NCBI RefSeq assembly: GCF_900187945.1
Contig: NZ_FYEH01000010.1
Location: 62,001-126,000 of the forward strand
From: Arboricoccus pini
GTDB taxonomy: Bacteria; Pseudomonadota; Alphaproteobacteria; Geminicoccales; Geminicoccaceae
Direction of reading: 5' to 3'
Length of the DNA: 64,000 nucleotides
Position numbers and translations under genes: made by a program. The notes beneath the pieces were generated by a model, which was given only the letters and a program-made list of their open reading frames with translations, was not told the origin of the DNA and ran no database searches. Below are positions 19,446 to 60,231 of this stretch, piece after piece (position 1 is the first letter of the stretch; every line of letters begins with the position of its first letter).

Positions 19446-20607
19446 CCAAAATGCAATTCAAGCAATCTGAAGCCTTCAGGGCGAAGAAAGAATGGCGCGC
19501 ATGGACCCTATGACGTGATCCCACGATCAGGCGATTGGGGATCGCCCTGAAGACCTAGCCTACCTTACAAGCTTGCTTTGTCTCGTCGTTAAGCGAAGCG
19601 GTTCAAGCGGGCCTAGAACGGCTCGTTTGGTCTGCGATACCCTACGACCGCCGACGCTAGGCCCTTGGAGCAACAGCAGCTGCCGCACTGATCGTCCGAG
19701 CGTGACGCGGCGAGGACCCGCGCCGGTCCTTTCGGCCTGCAGGCAAAGCAGCCTCAATTCCGCTCACGGCCCGTAGGGCACGCCTCAATAGGTGGCGTGG
19801 AATTGTTGGATGGCGATCGCTTCAATCGAAGCGAGTTTGCCGCATAGGCCTTATACTAGTCATAACTCACATTATGGATTTTACCAGGCGACATCCTGGT
19901 CTCACACATCGTCAACCACGCCACGCTGTCGCAGCGTTTTCTAGACGTCGTCGCCGACTCAATCATCGAACGTTTTGATAACGAAAAAGGTCACGAGCGG
20001 CGCCGGGCTGTATCAAGGCCGAGCGGAGATCGAGTGGAGCCGCACAAAGGTCGGCCACGACTGGACCCGCAAAGCCACGGCGAACCTGAGTGGAAAGATT
20101 TCCCGCCTCTCGCACCTGTCATGGTCGGTCCGCGCGGCCATCGGGCAAATCACAGTTGAACAACGTCATAAGCTCCCGCCGGGCAGCGTCGCTGTCCGAT
20201 ACACCGACGAAGGCAACCATTTGCGACGTCTGTTTTGGCCGTGGCGTCGCTAGCTCTCTCCCGCCCACACGATGCCCCCGCATTGATGCGGGCATAGGGA
20301 CCGACCCGATGGCGTATTACCGCCTCGTTCTCGCTCTGGTTTCGCTTGACGTGCCTACCGATCGCCTGGAAGGGTCGTGTTTCCACAAACTATGTTGTGG
20401 TTCCCGGGTAAAGGCGTCCAATGACGGGCGCCTTTACTCGTTGATGGCGGCTGGCGCCGCGCTAAGCACTGAGCCGCGCGGTGTCGCGGACGGCCCATTG
20501 CGATAAGCATGTCCGCATGCCGGATCAAAGCTGCCACCAAGTGCGACCGATGTTTTTTAGCCGACCTCGTCGACGAGGATACTTGCGCCAACGAGGTCGG
20601 GCGACGA
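19446..20607. other. gene-poor stretch between the GntR operon and the SDR gene
   Basis: Only short open frames are present, none with a plausible ribosome-binding site plus a recognisable family. The alternating short frames and normal GC suggest decayed coding sequence. The one clear structural element is the hairpin at 20408-20437. Confidence 0.4.
20408..20437. terminator. hairpin, possible terminator
   Basis: GTAAAGGCG and CGCCTTTAC form a perfect nine-base-pair stem, extendable to twelve pairs with one G-U pair around the loop AATGAC. No long T-run follows on either strand. It lies 170 bp past the stop of the leftward SDR gene. Confidence 0.4.
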
Positions 20608-50415: not shown

Positions 50416-51134
50416 AGCCAGGAATTCGCGGCAAACGGCGCCGCAGTGCGCGCCCCCGTCCTTGTCTTATTCAGGTGTGGCCATAAGCCATCCCTGGCTG
50501 CCGCGGCCCGCCGCCTGGACCATATTCCACGGCGCTGGATCAGATGACGTGTAAAAGGGCGATGTTAATCCGGCATGCGTCCTTCCCCACGGTTGCGTCC
50601 TCCAGCGGCTAACCCGGACCGCTACGATGACGCCCTTGGGCACGCTCGACGCCATTATTGCTGCACGACTGTGCTTCCGGTCACCCGCCATCAACGACAA
50701 GCTTGCAGGCAGCCAGATGGCAGGCGCCATCTTGTTCGCGACTACGCGGTCTATGTCTGAACGCGGCACAGACGAGGCAAAGGGTCTCGAATAAAACCGA
50801 TAATAGGCGAGCTTTGAAGGCGTCGCCAAGGAGACTCGTGTCTTTCCTCGCGGCAGACGGGACGACCGGTCAGAGCGGATCGTCGAACATACGGTCCTCC
50901 GTCGTTCAGCAATGCGCCGTCTTCTCGGTCGGCTTCGACAGCAAACCGGCCTTTGTCGCTAAGTCCCTGCTCCATGATTGCAGATCGACGGCGCAAGGCT
51001 AGGCAGCTACCAGAACTAGCTTCAGGCCCTCGACCAACAGCTCCATCCAGGGCCATCAGGCGCCGGTCAGCGCAGCCAACTAAGACCTCCGCCAGCCTCG
51101 ATCTGGCCTGCCGGTACGCGTTGGACGGTCACGC
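50416..51134. other. gene-free region after gcd
   Basis: No supported gene or clear terminator; short frames only. It leads into tandem repeats and the partition region. Confidence 0.4.
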
Positions 51135-51188
51135 GCTTGTTCGGCTTGTTCGGCTTGTTCGGCTTGTTCGGCTTGTTCGGCTTGTTCG
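51135..51188. repeat. six perfect tandem copies of a 9-bp unit
   Basis: GCTTGTTCG is repeated six times without error and followed by a partial copy (GCT). The array is noncoding in context; the unit length of nine would add three residues per copy if translated. No spacers, so it is not CRISPR. Confidence 0.95.
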
Positions 51189-51340
51189 GCTATGATGTCG
51201 GCGGCTTGGCCAGCGTCAACTATCCGCGAACACTTATCCCCGACCGCTAAACAGGCGCCAGTCTGCAATACTTTGTGCGAACGACGCCTGTCCGCGCACG
51301 CGGGAACGCTCCGGCCGACGTGGGCGTTCCATCATGCCTG

Positions 51341-51405
51341 CCCTGCCCTGCCCTGCCCTGCCCTGCCCTGCCCTGCCCTGCCCTGCCCTGCCCTGCCCTG
51401 CCCTG
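51341..51405. repeat. about thirteen perfect tandem copies of CCCTG
   Basis: The 5-bp unit CCCTG is repeated head to tail for 65 bp, preceded by one imperfect copy. Such a short simple repeat is prone to slippage. No gene with a convincing start spans it. Confidence 0.95.
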
Positions 51406-51823
51406 CCAAATGTCTGTCGGACGAGACCGCTGGCGCCAAACGGTTTCATGGAACGGCCGCAGATCTGGATTGGCTGTAGCTGGTTGGCGCATGAGGTGAT
51501 GCTCGCCATGCCTACCTGGTTCATACCAATCGCCCCAGCACCGTTCAGGTCACAGAACCCCGGGCGCCTTGTGGCGCCCATGACGTCGGCGTCGGCATGC
51601 CTGCTTTCACGAGTTACAGCGTGTTCCTGATCCTCTGCGCGACAGAATAAGGCGAGATTTGCATTGCCGGTTGCTTCGGCGGGCTTTCCCGACCTCTCAC
51701 CTCCAGCCGGATCGCCATTTCCAGGGCAAACTCGGGTGATGGGTGACTTGAAGCGTCGTTAACTCAGCGCCCCTGGCCCCGTCCTTGTTGGCTCTGTCTC
51801 TCGGTCAAAAATTATTCGTCTGT
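51406..51823. other. gene-free stretch between repeats
   Basis: No supported gene. It separates the CCCTG array from the TTATCCGGTT repeats. Confidence 0.4.
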
Positions 51824-52497
51824 TTATCCGGTTTCTGTATTCATTCGGTCTGTATGATGATCCGGTTATGATACGCCGTGTCACGATGACCCATGGTGGC
51901 GCTGTAAGCCTCTGAGTTCCGTTGAGGATCCCACCGCCGACCACTCTGGTGAGAGACCTCGAATAAAGCCGCGCTCACCAAGCCTATATATTATCCGGTT
52001 TGTCTTATTATCCGGTCTTATGCCGACCGAACGAGCGATATCATGCTATCTTTATCTGGTTTTCGTTATTATCGTATAATACGCCTAACCCAGTTATCAG
52101 GTTGCGATGGGAATACTGGTGAGCATCCTTCAAGCAGACATGCGACATGCCCTGCTCTGCGGAGGGCGTGGATTTGACCACAGAGACAACTGTCACCAGA
52201 TCAGACGACACCGATTCATTATCTGATATTCCACATTATCCGGTCAAACCGGATAATTGGGGTAATCCGATAATGATATAGAGCCAATGAAAAAATGAAT
52301 GAGTACACACGCGAGGTGTGCAGGCGGCCCTATCCGACTCAAGCATCTCGAAATTCCAGGCGGATTTCTTCCAGGGCCGATCGGACCGCGTACACAGGGG
52401 TTTCTCGCCACAACCGCTTTATGACCGGATGATTAGGAAAATCCGGTTATAGAAATAAATTGCAACTCTAGATAAGCGATGATATCCGGTTATCCGT
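51824..52497. repeat. TTATCCGGTT-type repeats, probable partition or origin site
   Basis: At least ten copies or close variants of TTATCCGGTT occur in an AT-rich stretch before parA: about 51824, 51859, 51991, 52008, 52052 (one change), 52094 (one change), 52236, an inverted copy at 52248, an inverted core near 52424, 52440, and 52482. Dispersed short repeats upstream of a parA-parG operon are what is expected of a parS/parC-like centromere that also acts as the operon operator; they could alternatively be iterons of a second origin. Confidence 0.75.
52235..52257. promoter_or_regulatory. perfect inverted pair of the TTATCCGGT repeat
   Basis: ATTATCCGGT, then CAA, then ACCGGATAAT: a perfect 10-bp inverted repeat made from two facing copies of the repeated unit. 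It is the strongest dyad of the region and the best candidate nucleation site for the small partition protein. Confidence 0.65.
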
Positions 52498-52523
52498 ATG
52501 ACCAGGTAAGAGAAAAGTAGAGA

Positions 52524-53186
52524 ATGCCCGTGATCGTGGTGGCCTCGCCCAAGGGCGGGGCAGGGAAGTCGACAACGGCGGTCGTCCTAGGCACCGAAAT
52601 GGCGCATGCTGGGGCGGAGGTCGTGCTGCTCGACTGCGACCCAAACCGTTCCATTTCACTTTGGGCCGAGAGACGGCCGCCGCCCCCTCGAATCACGGTC
52701 CAGTCCGATGTCAGCGAAGCCGAGATCGTGCGCACGATCAAGCGCTACGACGCCGATGGACGGGTGGTGATCGTCGATCTCGAGGGCGTCGCCTCGCGGC
52801 TGGTCTCGCGCGCCATCTCGCAGGCCGATCTCGTCCTCACGCCGATGCGGGCAACGACTCTCGATGCCACGATCGGAATCCGGGCACTCTCGCTGGTAGC
52901 GGAAGAGGAGGAGGCGCTGGGCCGACCCATTCGCCAAGCGGTGGTCTTCACCATGACGCGTGCCGTCAAATCCAAGCAGCATACCGCCATCGAGGCGTCG
53001 TTGCTGGGGCAGGGGGTCGACGTCGTCCAGCCACCCTTGATGGAGCGCTCCGCCTTCTCAGCGCTGTTCGAATTCGGCGGCGACCTGCGCAGCATCCCCG
53101 CCCAAGGGCGCATGGAAGCGGCGATCGGTAATGCCGCCTTGTTTGCCGCTGAAATCTACAAGCGACTGGTCGAGAAAGCCGCATGA
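52524..53186 (+). CDS. parA: ParA-type partition ATPase
   Basis: A 220-residue deviant Walker ATPase: KGGAGKST at residues 10-17, Walker A' type, then LLDCDPNRSISLWAERR and VIVDLEGVASRLV. Short with no N-terminal DNA-binding domain, hence class Ib (ParF-like). It moves plasmid copies apart by dynamic binding to the nucleoid. Its stop overlaps the start of the ParG-like gene as ATGA. The TTATCCGGTT repeats lie directly upstream. Confidence 0.93.
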   Translation: MPVIVVASPKGGAGKSTTAVVLGTEMAHAGAEVVLLDCDPNRSISLWAERRPPPPRITVQSDVSEAEIVRTIKRYDADGRVVIVDLEGVASRLVSRAISQADLVLTPMRATTLDATIGIRALSLVAEEEEALGRPIRQAVVFTMTRAVKSKQHTAIEASLLGQGVDVVQPPLMERSAFSALFEFGGDLRSIPAQGRMEAAIGNAALFAAEIYKRLVEKAA

Positions 53187-53485
53187 GCAACGAAGACAAA
53201 CCCTTCACGATCGATCTGCGGCAACTCAAGAGCCGCAACAAAGACGGCTCGCCGCAAGTGGTGCAGCGCGTCGACGCCGCCGGCGAGGGTTTGGGTTTCG
53301 TCGATCGCAGCGCCAAGAAGCAGCGCGGTCGTCGGCCGAGCCCGCGCACCGGCCAGGTGCATGCCAAGGTCCTCCCGCACGTGGCCGAGGAGATCGGCAA
53401 CGAGGCCCGTCGCCGCGGCGTCCAACAGGGCGTCGTCATCGAGGACGCCTGGGCGCTCTACGTCAAAGCCAACAACCCGGACTAA
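53183..53485 (+). CDS. small ParG-like partition partner
   Basis: A 100-residue basic protein translated right after ParA (ATGA overlap). The N-terminal half is flexible and charged; the C-terminal half (VHAKVLPHVAEEIGNEARRRGVQ, used here in parts) has the strand-helix-helix outline of a ribbon-helix-helix DNA-binding dimer. By position and size it is the ParG/ParB-equivalent that binds the centromere and stimulates ParA. Sequence identity to known ParG is not evident. Confidence 0.78.
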   Translation: MSNEDKPFTIDLRQLKSRNKDGSPQVVQRVDAAGEGLGFVDRSAKKQRGRRPSPRTGQVHAKVLPHVAEEIGNEARRRGVQQGVVIEDAWALYVKANNPD

Positions 53486-53670: not shown

Positions 53671-53724
53671 GTCCTATCTCGCTGTCTTACGCACCGCGCG
53701 GTGCGTAAGACAGCGAGATAGGAC
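53671..53724. repeat. 54-bp perfect palindrome between parA-parG and repA
   Basis: Positions 53671-53697 and 53698-53724 are exact reverse complements with no spacer; the centre is GCACCGC-GCGGTGC. It lies between the stops of the convergent partition and replication genes, so it can act as a two-way transcription stop, though no T-run follows. Each arm contains CTCGCTGTCTTACG (53678-53691 on the left), which resembles the repA iteron CTCGCTAAGTTACA at ten of fourteen positions, so it may be a facing iteron pair. Confidence 0.9.
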
Positions 53725-53755: not shown

Positions 53756-54655
53756 TCAGGCGGCGGTGATCATGCCCGACGTGCGCTTGGCTACGGCCGG
53801 AGCCGACGGCCAGAGCCTGGCGCCATTGTCATCAAGCTCCACGCGCGCATCCGGATAGACCTGCAGTGCCAGTTCCAGATCGCGACGGAAGCGCGGCTTG
53901 AAATGATAGAGCTCCTTGGTGGCCGCCCCGAACTGCGCATGCAGAGCCTGCCAGGAGACCATCGTCGGCCGTTTTAACGCGTGCAGCCGGTAGGCCAGCC
54001 AGAGATAGATGTCGAGCGGCATGCAGGTATCCGCCAGATGTCGGATCGCTGCTTCGGCGACCGGCACTGGATGCTCGTTCAGCGCCCGGTAGAAACCCTC
54101 GCTAAGTTCCACGCTGCCATCGCCCTCATAAGGGTCGAATGAGCCGCGAATGATCGAATCCTGCCACCGGCCATTGCCGTCCTCGGTCGCATAGGAAAAG
54201 CGGATCAAACAATTCTCGATCCGCCGTGCCTGCTCCAGCACCGTCTTGTAGTTCGGCCCGCAAAGCGCCACGCCCATGGCCTGCAGCCAGCCGCGCATGC
54301 TCTTGCCCAGGCTCACCTGCCGCGATCCCGTCTTGATCGCCTCGGCCTGTAGGTAGAGAAGGATCAGGCGCGCCTTTGGTCCGTAAGGTACGCCCATGTA
54401 GCTGCCATCCTTCTGGCGCACGGGCACCACCTCGAGAGAGGCGAACGATCCCTGGCGGCTCCAGATCTCGTCCTGCGGCGTCGCCCGGTGCGGCAGAGTC
54501 GTCAGACACATGGAAGGATGAACGAACCCGGCATCCAGATTTTCATCCGCCAGGAAGTTCATGGCCAGCTGCAGCGCCTTCTTCTCGGCTTTGCTGCTGG
54601 CACTAGCTAGCACCGCGCGACCGTGCAAGCGCACTTTCTCGTGTAGATCGCTCAT
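53756..54655 (-). CDS. repA: plasmid replication initiator RepA
   Basis: A 299-residue protein of the RepA type found on alphaproteobacterial plasmids: LHEKVRLHGRAVLASAS start, DAGFVHPSMCLTTLPHR, GVPYGPKARLILLYLQAEAIKTGSR, and the winged-helix-like C-terminal part YLWLAYRLHALKRPTMVSW. It binds iterons and starts plasmid replication. GGAG about eight bases before the ATG at 54655 fixes the start; the longer open frame runs through the iterons. Nine iterons lie upstream on its 5' side. Confidence 0.9.
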   Translation of the reverse strand: MSDLHEKVRLHGRAVLASASSKAEKKALQLAMNFLADENLDAGFVHPSMCLTTLPHRATPQDEIWSRQGSFASLEVVPVRQKDGSYMGVPYGPKARLILLYLQAEAIKTGSRQVSLGKSMRGWLQAMGVALCGPNYKTVLEQARRIENCLIRFSYATEDGNGRWQDSIIRGSFDPYEGDGSVELSEGFYRALNEHPVPVAEAAIRHLADTCMPLDIYLWLAYRLHALKRPTMVSWQALHAQFGAATKELYHFKPRFRRDLELALQVYPDARVELDDNGARLWPSAPAVAKRTSGMITAA

Positions 54656-54710: not shown

Positions 54711-55151
54711 TGTAGCTTAGCGAGGCTTTCTCCTAGTTGCAGATTATTAGATTCTATTAGATTCCTTAGTAGGGCACGCCAACTTACACGCTGGCCTCGC
54801 CAAGCTACGCATCCACCTCGCCAAGTTACAGCGGACAACGCATTCATCCACAGCTTTGCCGCTCGCTAAGTTACAGACCTCGACTCTCACGCGAGTAAGA
54901 TCCTTCAACTCACTGATCAACAAACGCTATATCCCTTTTCGTCGCGAATCCATGCTTCACGCTTTCTCCGAGCCTCGCTAACTTACACACCTCTGTCAGC
55001 GCCTGATCTCGCTAACCTACATGCCGTCAGCGCCTGATTTTTTCCCGTCGCCCTTAACGTCAGCTCCCCGGACGACACGCGACCACACCCGCCCATCTCC
55101 CGACAATGCGTAACTTAGCGAGCCACCCCGCAAATCATGTAGCTTAGCGAG
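54711..55151. other. iteron-type replication origin
   Basis: Nine copies of a 14-bp motif close to CTCGCTAAGTTACA occur in mixed orientation: 54711-54725 (-), 54777-54788, 54796-54809, 54817-54830, 54862-54875, 54974-54987, 55008-55021, 55108-55122 (-) and 55138-55151 (-). The region is gene-free, with an AT-rich part around 54735-54770 that could melt. Its position directly upstream of repA makes it the plasmid origin. Confidence 0.88.
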
Positions 55152-55249
55152 ACCCGCCAAGGAGAATGTCAGAGGAAACGGCCTCCGCCGGCCCCCGGCG
55201 ATCTGATGATCGCCGCCTCGCTGCGAGAAAGCAGGGATGCCTCCGGCGG

Positions 55250-55270
55250 CCAGGGGGCACCGCCCCCTGG
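55250..55270. repeat. GC-rich interspersed hairpin
   Basis: CCAGGGGGC, then ACC, then GCCCCCTGG: a perfect nine-pair hairpin in the context GCCTCCGGCGG...CTGGACCCGG. Such modules are scattered widely in alphaproteobacterial genomes, usually beside genes; from memory only. A partial relative lies near 56185-56215. Confidence 0.6.
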
Positions 55271-55328
55271 ACCCGGGTTGGGGTGGGGTTGCCAGTGCGG
55301 GTGAGGATCGAGTCTTCCCCGGCCAGGA

Positions 55329-56099: not shown

Positions 56100-56296
56100 G
56101 GGGCCTACCGTACAAGGAATATAGTCCTTATAAAATAGATCTCATACGCCACCCGCTGTCCGACCCACCCATCGCCCCCCAGGTCCAGGAGGCGGTGCCT
56201 CCTGGTCGCCGAAGGCTTCCTCCGCTCATTTATCCTATTCTATTTCATGTATTCTTCGTACGTTTACATACTGCGAACGGATAGGCCGAGGGCGCC

Positions 56297-58967: not shown

Positions 58968-59233
58968 GGCTATTCCAGCAAGGCCAACCAGGCTGCCGCA
59001 AGGGCGCGGGGCGTTGCCCCGGTCGAGTCCGCAGGAGGCCGGCGAAAGGAACGACCACGCCTTCTTCGCCCGGACGCTCGTCAGGGCGAAGAAGGCGTAT
59101 CGCGCAAGGCTTCGTCCGCGCCTAACGTCTCAAGCGCGTCGCCCTGGGATGTGAGAAAATCGCCAAAAATTAAAGGCCGATCGTGAGCATCGCAGGCAGT
59201 CTATGCTTGGTGAAATTCGTCCATACGGCCTAG
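58968..59233 (+). mobile_element. IS5-family transposase remnant (right)
   Basis: GYSSKANQAAARARGVAPVES and, at the end, SLCLVKFVHTA-stop (TAG at 59231-59233) match the middle and the very end of the same kind of IS5-family transposase as the left remnant, with the intervening part scrambled. The stop overlaps, on the opposite strand, the stop of the MetX-like gene. Confidence 0.78.
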
Positions 59234-60231
59234 GACAGCGCTTCATGAAACAAGGCGTCGAATGTTTCCTTCAGGTTCGGGTCCATTGGCGCCATATGCC
59301 CCCAGGTCGATTCCACCGTTGCGCAGCGACCATTGGGAATGTGCGAGGCCGCGAATTCCGCATCCTCAGGCGGAAAATAGCGATCCTTGTCGATGGGCAC
59401 CGTGATCAGCTTTGCCGTTATCGCAGCCAGTGCCTTGGTATAGTCGCCGTCATAGGCCGGGCTGTCGGAAATATCGCCGAGTTCCCAGGTCTTTAGCTGG
59501 GTGAGCAGATTATTGGCGTCGTGCCCGAGGTAGAAGGGCTCCCAGAAATATTCGAGGAATTCCGCGTGGTTCTTGGCGCCGAATCGCTCATAATGCCCAA
59601 GGCGGAAGAATGGCTCGGAGGTGCCCCAACCGGCATAGATCGCGGCAAACGCCTTCAGGCCGCGGATAGGCGGGCTTGCATAAAAGCCGTCCGCATAGAC
59701 CGGATCGAGGGTCAAGGCGCGCCGTAGCGCCAGGAGGAAGATCTTGTTGTAGGAGGCGGTCCTGGCCGAGCCCGCGATGGGCACGGCGGATCGCACCATG
59801 CCTGGATATTGCGCCGCCCATTGATAGGCCTGACAGGCCCCCATCGACCAGCCCGTCACCAGGCGAAGGTGCTCTACGCCCAATCGTTGCGTCAGGAGGG
59901 CGTGCTGCAATCGCACATTGTCGTAATATGTGACGGTCGGAAAGCGGCCTTGCTCGCTGGGCGCGGGGGAATTGGATGGCGAGGATGAACGTCCGCCGCC
60001 CAGAAGGTTGGTGAAGATGAGAAAATATTTTTCCGGGTCCAGTGCCCGGCCTGTGCCTGTCAGGTAGGTCTCGCTGGCCTCGTCATTGCCGGAAAACCAG
60101 GATGGGATGAGGACCGCATTGTCGCCGGTGGGCGACAAGGTCCCGGAGGTTCGATAGGCCAGGCGGGCAACAGGTAACGAGCCGCCCTTCTGCAAGAAGA
60201 AGTTATGTGCCTCGAAGTATTCGACAGCCAT
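59230..60231 (-). CDS. MetX-like alpha/beta hydrolase (homoserine O-acetyltransferase family)
   Basis: A 333-residue alpha/beta-hydrolase of the MetX group: FFLQKGGSLPVARLAYRTSG start, LIPSWFSGNDEASE, nucleophile Ser in VTGWSMGACQ, Asp in VPIDKDRYFPPED, His in TWGHMAPMD. The divergence from true MetX (usually about 370-390 residues and with NDLGG) suggests a stand-alone acyltransferase or hydrolase. ATG 60231 has an AGGGA upstream; ATG 60300 is in frame but has no site. Its 3' end meets an IS remnant. Confidence 0.85.
   Translation of the reverse strand: MAVEYFEAHNFFLQKGGSLPVARLAYRTSGTLSPTGDNAVLIPSWFSGNDEASETYLTGTGRALDPEKYFLIFTNLLGGGRSSSPSNSPAPSEQGRFPTVTYYDNVRLQHALLTQRLGVEHLRLVTGWSMGACQAYQWAAQYPGMVRSAVPIAGSARTASYNKIFLLALRRALTLDPVYADGFYASPPIRGLKAFAAIYAGWGTSEPFFRLGHYERFGAKNHAEFLEYFWEPFYLGHDANNLLTQLKTWELGDISDSPAYDGDYTKALAAITAKLITVPIDKDRYFPPEDAEFAASHIPNGRCATVESTWGHMAPMDPNLKETFDALFHEALS

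Follow-up and report, generated by a model that had tools for sequence, protein, structure and literature searches.

A perfect 54-bp palindrome lies just beyond the 3' end of repA in the 64-kb stretch of DNA analysed here (the window, part of a 151,841-bp contig in a genome of 28 contigs and 4.07 Mb), and we propose, with a probability of roughly 0.55, that it is a facing pair of RepA-binding sites through which RepA pairing would limit copy number. Four features can be read directly from the DNA: the palindrome itself, the match of its arms to the origin iterons, the recurrence of each plasmid's own iterons at the end of its repA gene, and the presence of facing pairs at other loci. From these we infer RepA binding at the palindrome, looping or pairing, and an effect on copy number. 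That the arms are initiator sites is likely given these matches, and copy control by the palindrome is plausible by analogy with other replicons.

The palindrome consists of two 27-nt arms with a spacer of 0 nt. A gap of 31 bp separates it from the repA stop codon, and one of 185 bp from the end of a small parB-like ORF (53485), so placed that repA and the parA/parB-like genes converge on it (Table 1), which agrees with the description in the earlier note of a 54-bp perfect palindrome between partition and replication genes. The runner-up inverted repeat of the window (59057-59098) has 20-nt arms with 1 mismatch, a 2-nt loop and no iteron nearby. When a 19-nt stretch of the arm was sought with up to 3 mismatches, the two arms were the only matches in the 4.07-Mb genome, a single-copy status at odds with a REP-like dispersed repeat, which would have many genomic copies. 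Across genome contigs, an arm 15-mer matched 118 stretches against a chance estimate, derived from collection size, of several hundred, and the match at L061 lay in an apparently coding region with no repA visible beside it. Comparison of the intergenic stretch with plasmid records yielded short matches only (22-44 bases, nine records), and Rfam gave three matches, all under gathering scores, of which two were to microRNA models and fell on the palindrome. The earlier note had also reasoned that a palindrome of this length is likely kept by selection; this premise is weak, because fold-back copying is able to create and repair palindromes and could have made and mended this one too.

RepA belongs to the RepA_C family, scoring 67.6 bits against PF04796 (cut-off 26) with a query that carried one extra residue ahead of the ATG. 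It had no match in NCBIfam and none of weight among solved structures; a search of viral contigs gave no confirmed match and one of phage records a single weak match. Nine iteron copies lie on the origin side of repA, the arrangement of an iteron replicon of this family. Another near-perfect iteron, inside the coding sequence ~340 bp ahead of the repA stop, is possibly an additional RepA site. Immediately 5' of parA (51825-52507), TTATCCGGT-like units in direct and inverted orientation possibly form a partition centromere, and short tandem arrays of the units GCTTGTTCG and CCTGC occupy 51126-51197 and 51327-51421. A 53-nt inverted repeat pair (55235-55287 and 56168-56220, 81% complementary) surrounds an ORF that matched nothing in Pfam or NCBIfam. 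RepA fragments broken by stop codons occur in the window (19644-19841, minus strand) and on contigs C24, C12 and C8 of the same genome; the one on C24 (59549-59770) is adjoined by a 15-mer (59808-59822) that resembles an iteron with one mismatch, as would the remnant of an old replicon of the same type.

Table 1. Features of the repA region of the window, and strict end-of-repA palindromes of the window and of related loci
Feature	Locus	Position	Strand	Basis or remark
parA-like partition ATPase	window	52524..53186	+	Pfam; NCBIfam NF041546 matched under cut-off
Small ORF 3' of parA, parB-like by position alone	window	53183..53485	+	no Pfam or NCBIfam match
Palindrome, proposed facing RepA site pair 3' of repA	window	53671..53724	.	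sequence; single in genome
Iteron-like stretch, left arm	window	53677..53694	+	13.2 bits against origin iterons
Iteron-like stretch, right arm (same letters, other strand)	window	53701..53718	-	13.2 bits
repA, RepA_C family initiator, 299 aa from ATG at 54655	window	53756..54655	-	PF04796, E 2.2e-18
Iteron-like site within repA coding sequence	window	54097..54114	+	21.9 bits
Operator-like iteron directly 5' of repA, inverted relative to most others	window	54711..54724	-	sequence
Origin iterons, starts 54775, 54796, 54817, 54862, 54974, 55008 (+) and 55109, 55138 (-)	window	54775..55151	+ and -	sequence, matrix
Strict end-of-repA palindrome	window			27-nt arms, perfect
Strict end-of-repA palindrome	L231			21 nt, perfect, 1-nt loop
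Strict end-of-repA palindrome	L168			19 nt, two mismatches
Strict end-of-repA palindrome	L225			16 nt, one mismatch
Strict end-of-repA palindrome	L244			15 nt, perfect, 7-nt loop

The consensus of the nine origin-side iterons is roughly CTCGCTAAGTTACAC, and each arm of the palindrome carries CTCGCTGTCTTACGC. On a matrix built from these nine copies, which themselves score 21.4-27.8 bits, the arm TCTCGCTGTCTTACGCAC reaches 13.2 bits, a value attained by 2 of 20,000 mononucleotide-shuffled versions of the 27-nt arm. Beyond the origin, the only site of the window to outscore the arms is the one inside repA (54097), and the next background site scores 12.9 bits. The arms contain bases absent from all nine iterons at two centre positions alone, where AA has become GT; with three centre columns masked they rise to 20.3 bits, a value that falls among those of the origin iterons (15.7-23.0) and above the best background (17.4). 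This change sits in a tolerant part of the iteron frame. Among 57 end-of-repA sites aligned in a common 18-position frame, departures from each plasmid's own consensus fall mostly at edge positions and at positions 8-11 in the centre (14-26% at the latter vs 0-7% at 3-7 and 12-16), and among 406 upstream copies positions 8 to 11 vary by 8-15%, more than most inner positions, a pattern to be read with the caveat that picking sites by matrix score favours departures where the upstream copies vary. The match between arms and iterons is thus suggestive and, taken alone, not convincing: the arms stand barely above background, and the case for RepA sites therefore rests on the relatives.

For each RepA locus, iterons were found anew in the 900 bp upstream of repA and then sought near its stop codon. 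The survey comprised 122 loci, grouped at 80% protein identity into 66 clusters that were each represented by one locus. Three or more iterons were present in 64 clusters; clusters L166 and L212 (the latter obtained separately), with fewer than three, stand outside the 64. The repA fragments L140, L143 and L146-L151 were left out, as was L180, which is on the same plasmid as L124. The second set combined 30 loci chosen by search with 40 picked from the list by place alone. It represents the family of G081, probably Azospirillaceae, which also occurs in the first set, the clusters being <80% identical; second-set loci duplicating first-set plasmids (for example L247 and L175) joined first-set clusters and fall outside the 24 second-set clusters counted. 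A first look revealed own-iteron copies near the repA stop in many loci, several of them mismatch-free. Requiring an own-iteron score of at least 12 bits in the stretch from -70 to +130 relative to the repA stop, a limit and a stretch settled after the first set had been viewed and before the second was scanned, we found an end-of-repA site in 22/40 first-set clusters (the window among them, at 12.7 bits) and in 19/24 second-set clusters. Control windows of 200 bp within and after repA, in a set slightly unlike that of the preceding scan of the first set, reached 12 bits in 16/652 cases (7/419 and 9/233 for the first and second set), and iterons of foreign plasmids did so near the repA stop in 143 of 4,032 trials (59/2,520 and 84/1,512). 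With a 15-bit limit, 21/40 and 19/24 clusters keep their site and the window falls out. When all members are counted, 119 loci have three or more iterons, and the site is found in 86 of them, corresponding to 41 of the 66 clusters.

The closest relative, L122, has a RepA 57% identical to that of the window and different iterons, a perfect 20-nt copy of which spans its repA stop codon. By the rule, 23 of the 64 clusters lack a site; these include three further RepA loci from the genome of the window (L135, L141 and L144) and the relatives L123, L124 and L125 (L124 with 268 bp upstream of repA only). Nine distant RepA_C loci were kept outside these counts, and 6/9 carry a copy between -70 and +130, the repeats used for L255, L256, L260 and L261 being themselves located downstream of repA. 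In L255, L256 and L260 the principal iteron array lies 3' of repA, and the end site may therefore have arisen as part of an origin. In the L188 cluster (17 loci), two direct iteron copies follow repA, and some members carry insertions of short near-repeats (GTCGGCGGCGGG). The earlier note had suggested a search for the same element beside repA on related plasmids and had set its reading against a possible lack of iteron-like arms in relatives; iteron copies do recur there, sometimes facing each other, and together with the matrix match they uphold its claim that the arms are iteron-like. On the other side of the gene, 48/64 clusters have an operator-like iteron in inverted orientation, 40-115 bp 5' of repA, and 37 clusters have both this iteron and the end site, so that initiator sites often stand at both ends of repA.

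Facing pairs are a minority among end-of-repA sites. Most clusters with an end site have one or two copies, with a maximum of four, and the window itself has two facing copies rather than an array of several iterons of the incC or incA type. Two facing sites within 60 bp occur in 18 loci from 10/66 clusters, compared with 2/1,180 controls, both directly past the test stretch. On plasmid p7 of Azospirillum argentinense (NZ_CP032328.1), the facing copies agree more closely with the plasmid's iterons than do those of the window. By a strict palindrome rule (arms of at least 14 nt, few mismatches), 5/66 repA stop windows qualify vs 5/866 controls, and all five palindromes at the stop are built of facing iterons (Table 1); a looser rule returns more cases, some iteron-built (L187) and some without iterons (L136, L243). 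In L231, a second palindrome with 20-nt arms lies ~1,200 bp before the repA stop and has its centre, GAACGGCGTTC, in common with the end-of-repA palindrome; the same centre appears in a short palindrome at +18 to +32 after the stop in L241, perhaps the site of another protein.

Variation within clusters bears on what may be conserved. In the L168 cluster the site is kept in 9/9 members, and the starts of the facing copies are 16-18 bp apart in L168, L217 and L251 and 35 and 47 bp apart in L206 and L207; the remaining four members have no pair passing the rule. All 4/4 members of the L187 cluster have a facing pair, at a spacing of 19-31 bp. Since the site is constant while its partner varies in spacing or is absent, it is binding sites rather than a hairpin that seem to be kept, and selection on binding sites seems to fit better than selection on a hairpin.

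In the mechanism we propose, RepA would bind the facing sites of the palindrome at the end of repA and, from there, pair with RepA on the operator iteron and the origin iterons across the gene, either as a loop within one plasmid or as a bridge between two plasmids. Such pairing would hold back both initiation and repA expression and in this way limit copy number. The pairing step is proposed because of the analogy with the downstream iterons of F (incC) and FIB. Of the sites that clear the limit, the facing pair of the window is one of the weakest, and it could be in decay.

Another explanation, which we consider doubtful and nonetheless the best of the alternatives, is that the palindrome is a decaying or accidental relic: an iteron after repA would have been inverted by fold-back replication, its symmetry upheld in the same way, and no function would attach to it. 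This would fit the low scores of the arms, the two centre changes that both arms share, and the symmetry of the flanks, which extends to non-iteron letters; with the main array after repA in L255, L256 and L260, the copy could also be a leftover of an old origin. However, the end sites of the relatives track the present iterons of each plasmid, often without a mismatch, which is not expected of a relic, and the outer blocks of both arms in the window are intact.

Termination is unlikely to be the function of the palindrome. The earlier note had suggested two-way termination, and a two-way terminator or a stabiliser of mRNA 3' ends between convergent genes, with an incidental likeness to iterons, would suit both the position of the palindrome and its predicted hairpin, which is very stable (z -8.0) and has the GC-rich stem of an intrinsic terminator. 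Against this, neither strand has a U-tract after the palindrome, a terminator scan returned nothing there, the spacing of the facing copies varies among relatives, and the other four long end-of-repA palindromes, read by eye, have no U-tract on the repA strand. Among 12 named plasmids from clusters whose representative carries the site, the next annotated gene after repA runs in the same direction in 7 and converges on it in 5 (from an incomplete gene table), and the occurrence of both arrangements argues against a role tied to convergent transcription. The same count weakens the idea, about equally improbable, that RepA at the palindrome is a local transcription roadblock which shields repA or ends its mRNA with no part in copy control, an idea otherwise in keeping with the many clusters whose site falls where repA ends and with the convergent par genes of the window.

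A second replication start at the end of repA is very improbable. In the beta origin of R6K, replication starts by an initiator site close to where the initiator gene ends, and initiator sites do sit at the end of the initiator gene here as well. In the present replicons, however, the sequence after repA has neither DnaA boxes nor an A+T-rich stretch: among the 40 clusters with the site, A+T content is 0.39 in the 300 bp after repA vs 0.43 in the 500 bp before it, exact DnaA boxes number 0 in 12,000 bp after vs 9 in 20,000 bp before, and the window has no exact DnaA box on either side of repA. The absence of these features after repA therefore disfavours a second origin. A protelomerase target can be set aside almost entirely: the length and symmetry recall the long symmetric telomere resolution site of N15, but the sequence runs on at both sides of the palindrome, and PF16684, the model for a ResT/TelK-type gene, has 0 matches in the same genome (1 of 14 control genomes has a match).

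Beyond the window, we put forward more tentatively, and at less than even odds, that RepA_C replicons of at least the Geminicoccaceae, Azospirillaceae and Acetobacteraceae carry an unnoticed standard initiator site at the end of repA, which would bracket the gene together with the operator iteron. Facing pairs would then have arisen separately in several lineages, and may bind RepA dimers and, of the pairing sites known to act in copy control, be the smallest. A literature search, with subscription papers outside its reach, returned no title on an end-of-repA site in RepA_C replicons. If the proposal is correct, many plasmids and chromids of this group carry a copy-control site whose length of just one or two iterons lets it escape annotation. 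They would also offer a natural series, from no copy to one copy to two facing copies, abutting or spaced, with which to address whether initiator dimers bridge DNA sites, a question long debated for iteron plasmids.

Control iterons downstream of an initiator gene are known from other replicons. In P1, the incA locus likewise places its control iterons after repA, although there are nine of them. A close parallel is incC of the F plasmid, directly downstream of repE, which according to PMC13028717 acts negatively through a loop with the origin iterons and whose deletion raises copy number. That locus comprises five iterons and serves another initiator, RepE, whereas the putative control sites described here have one or two copies and include facing ones. 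In FIB, iterons flank rep on both sides as in the window, and PMC11983097 attributes control to the downstream set, which displaced the replicon when the upstream set did not; this set is a block of iterons E to K, again in contrast to one or two copies here. The same paper describes how, in RK2, removal of a single stray iteron (iteron 10) raises copy number, with the difference that this iteron lies beside the origin rather than where the initiator gene ends. The facing site at the end of repA is probably a small control site that would act as these downstream iterons of F and FIB do.
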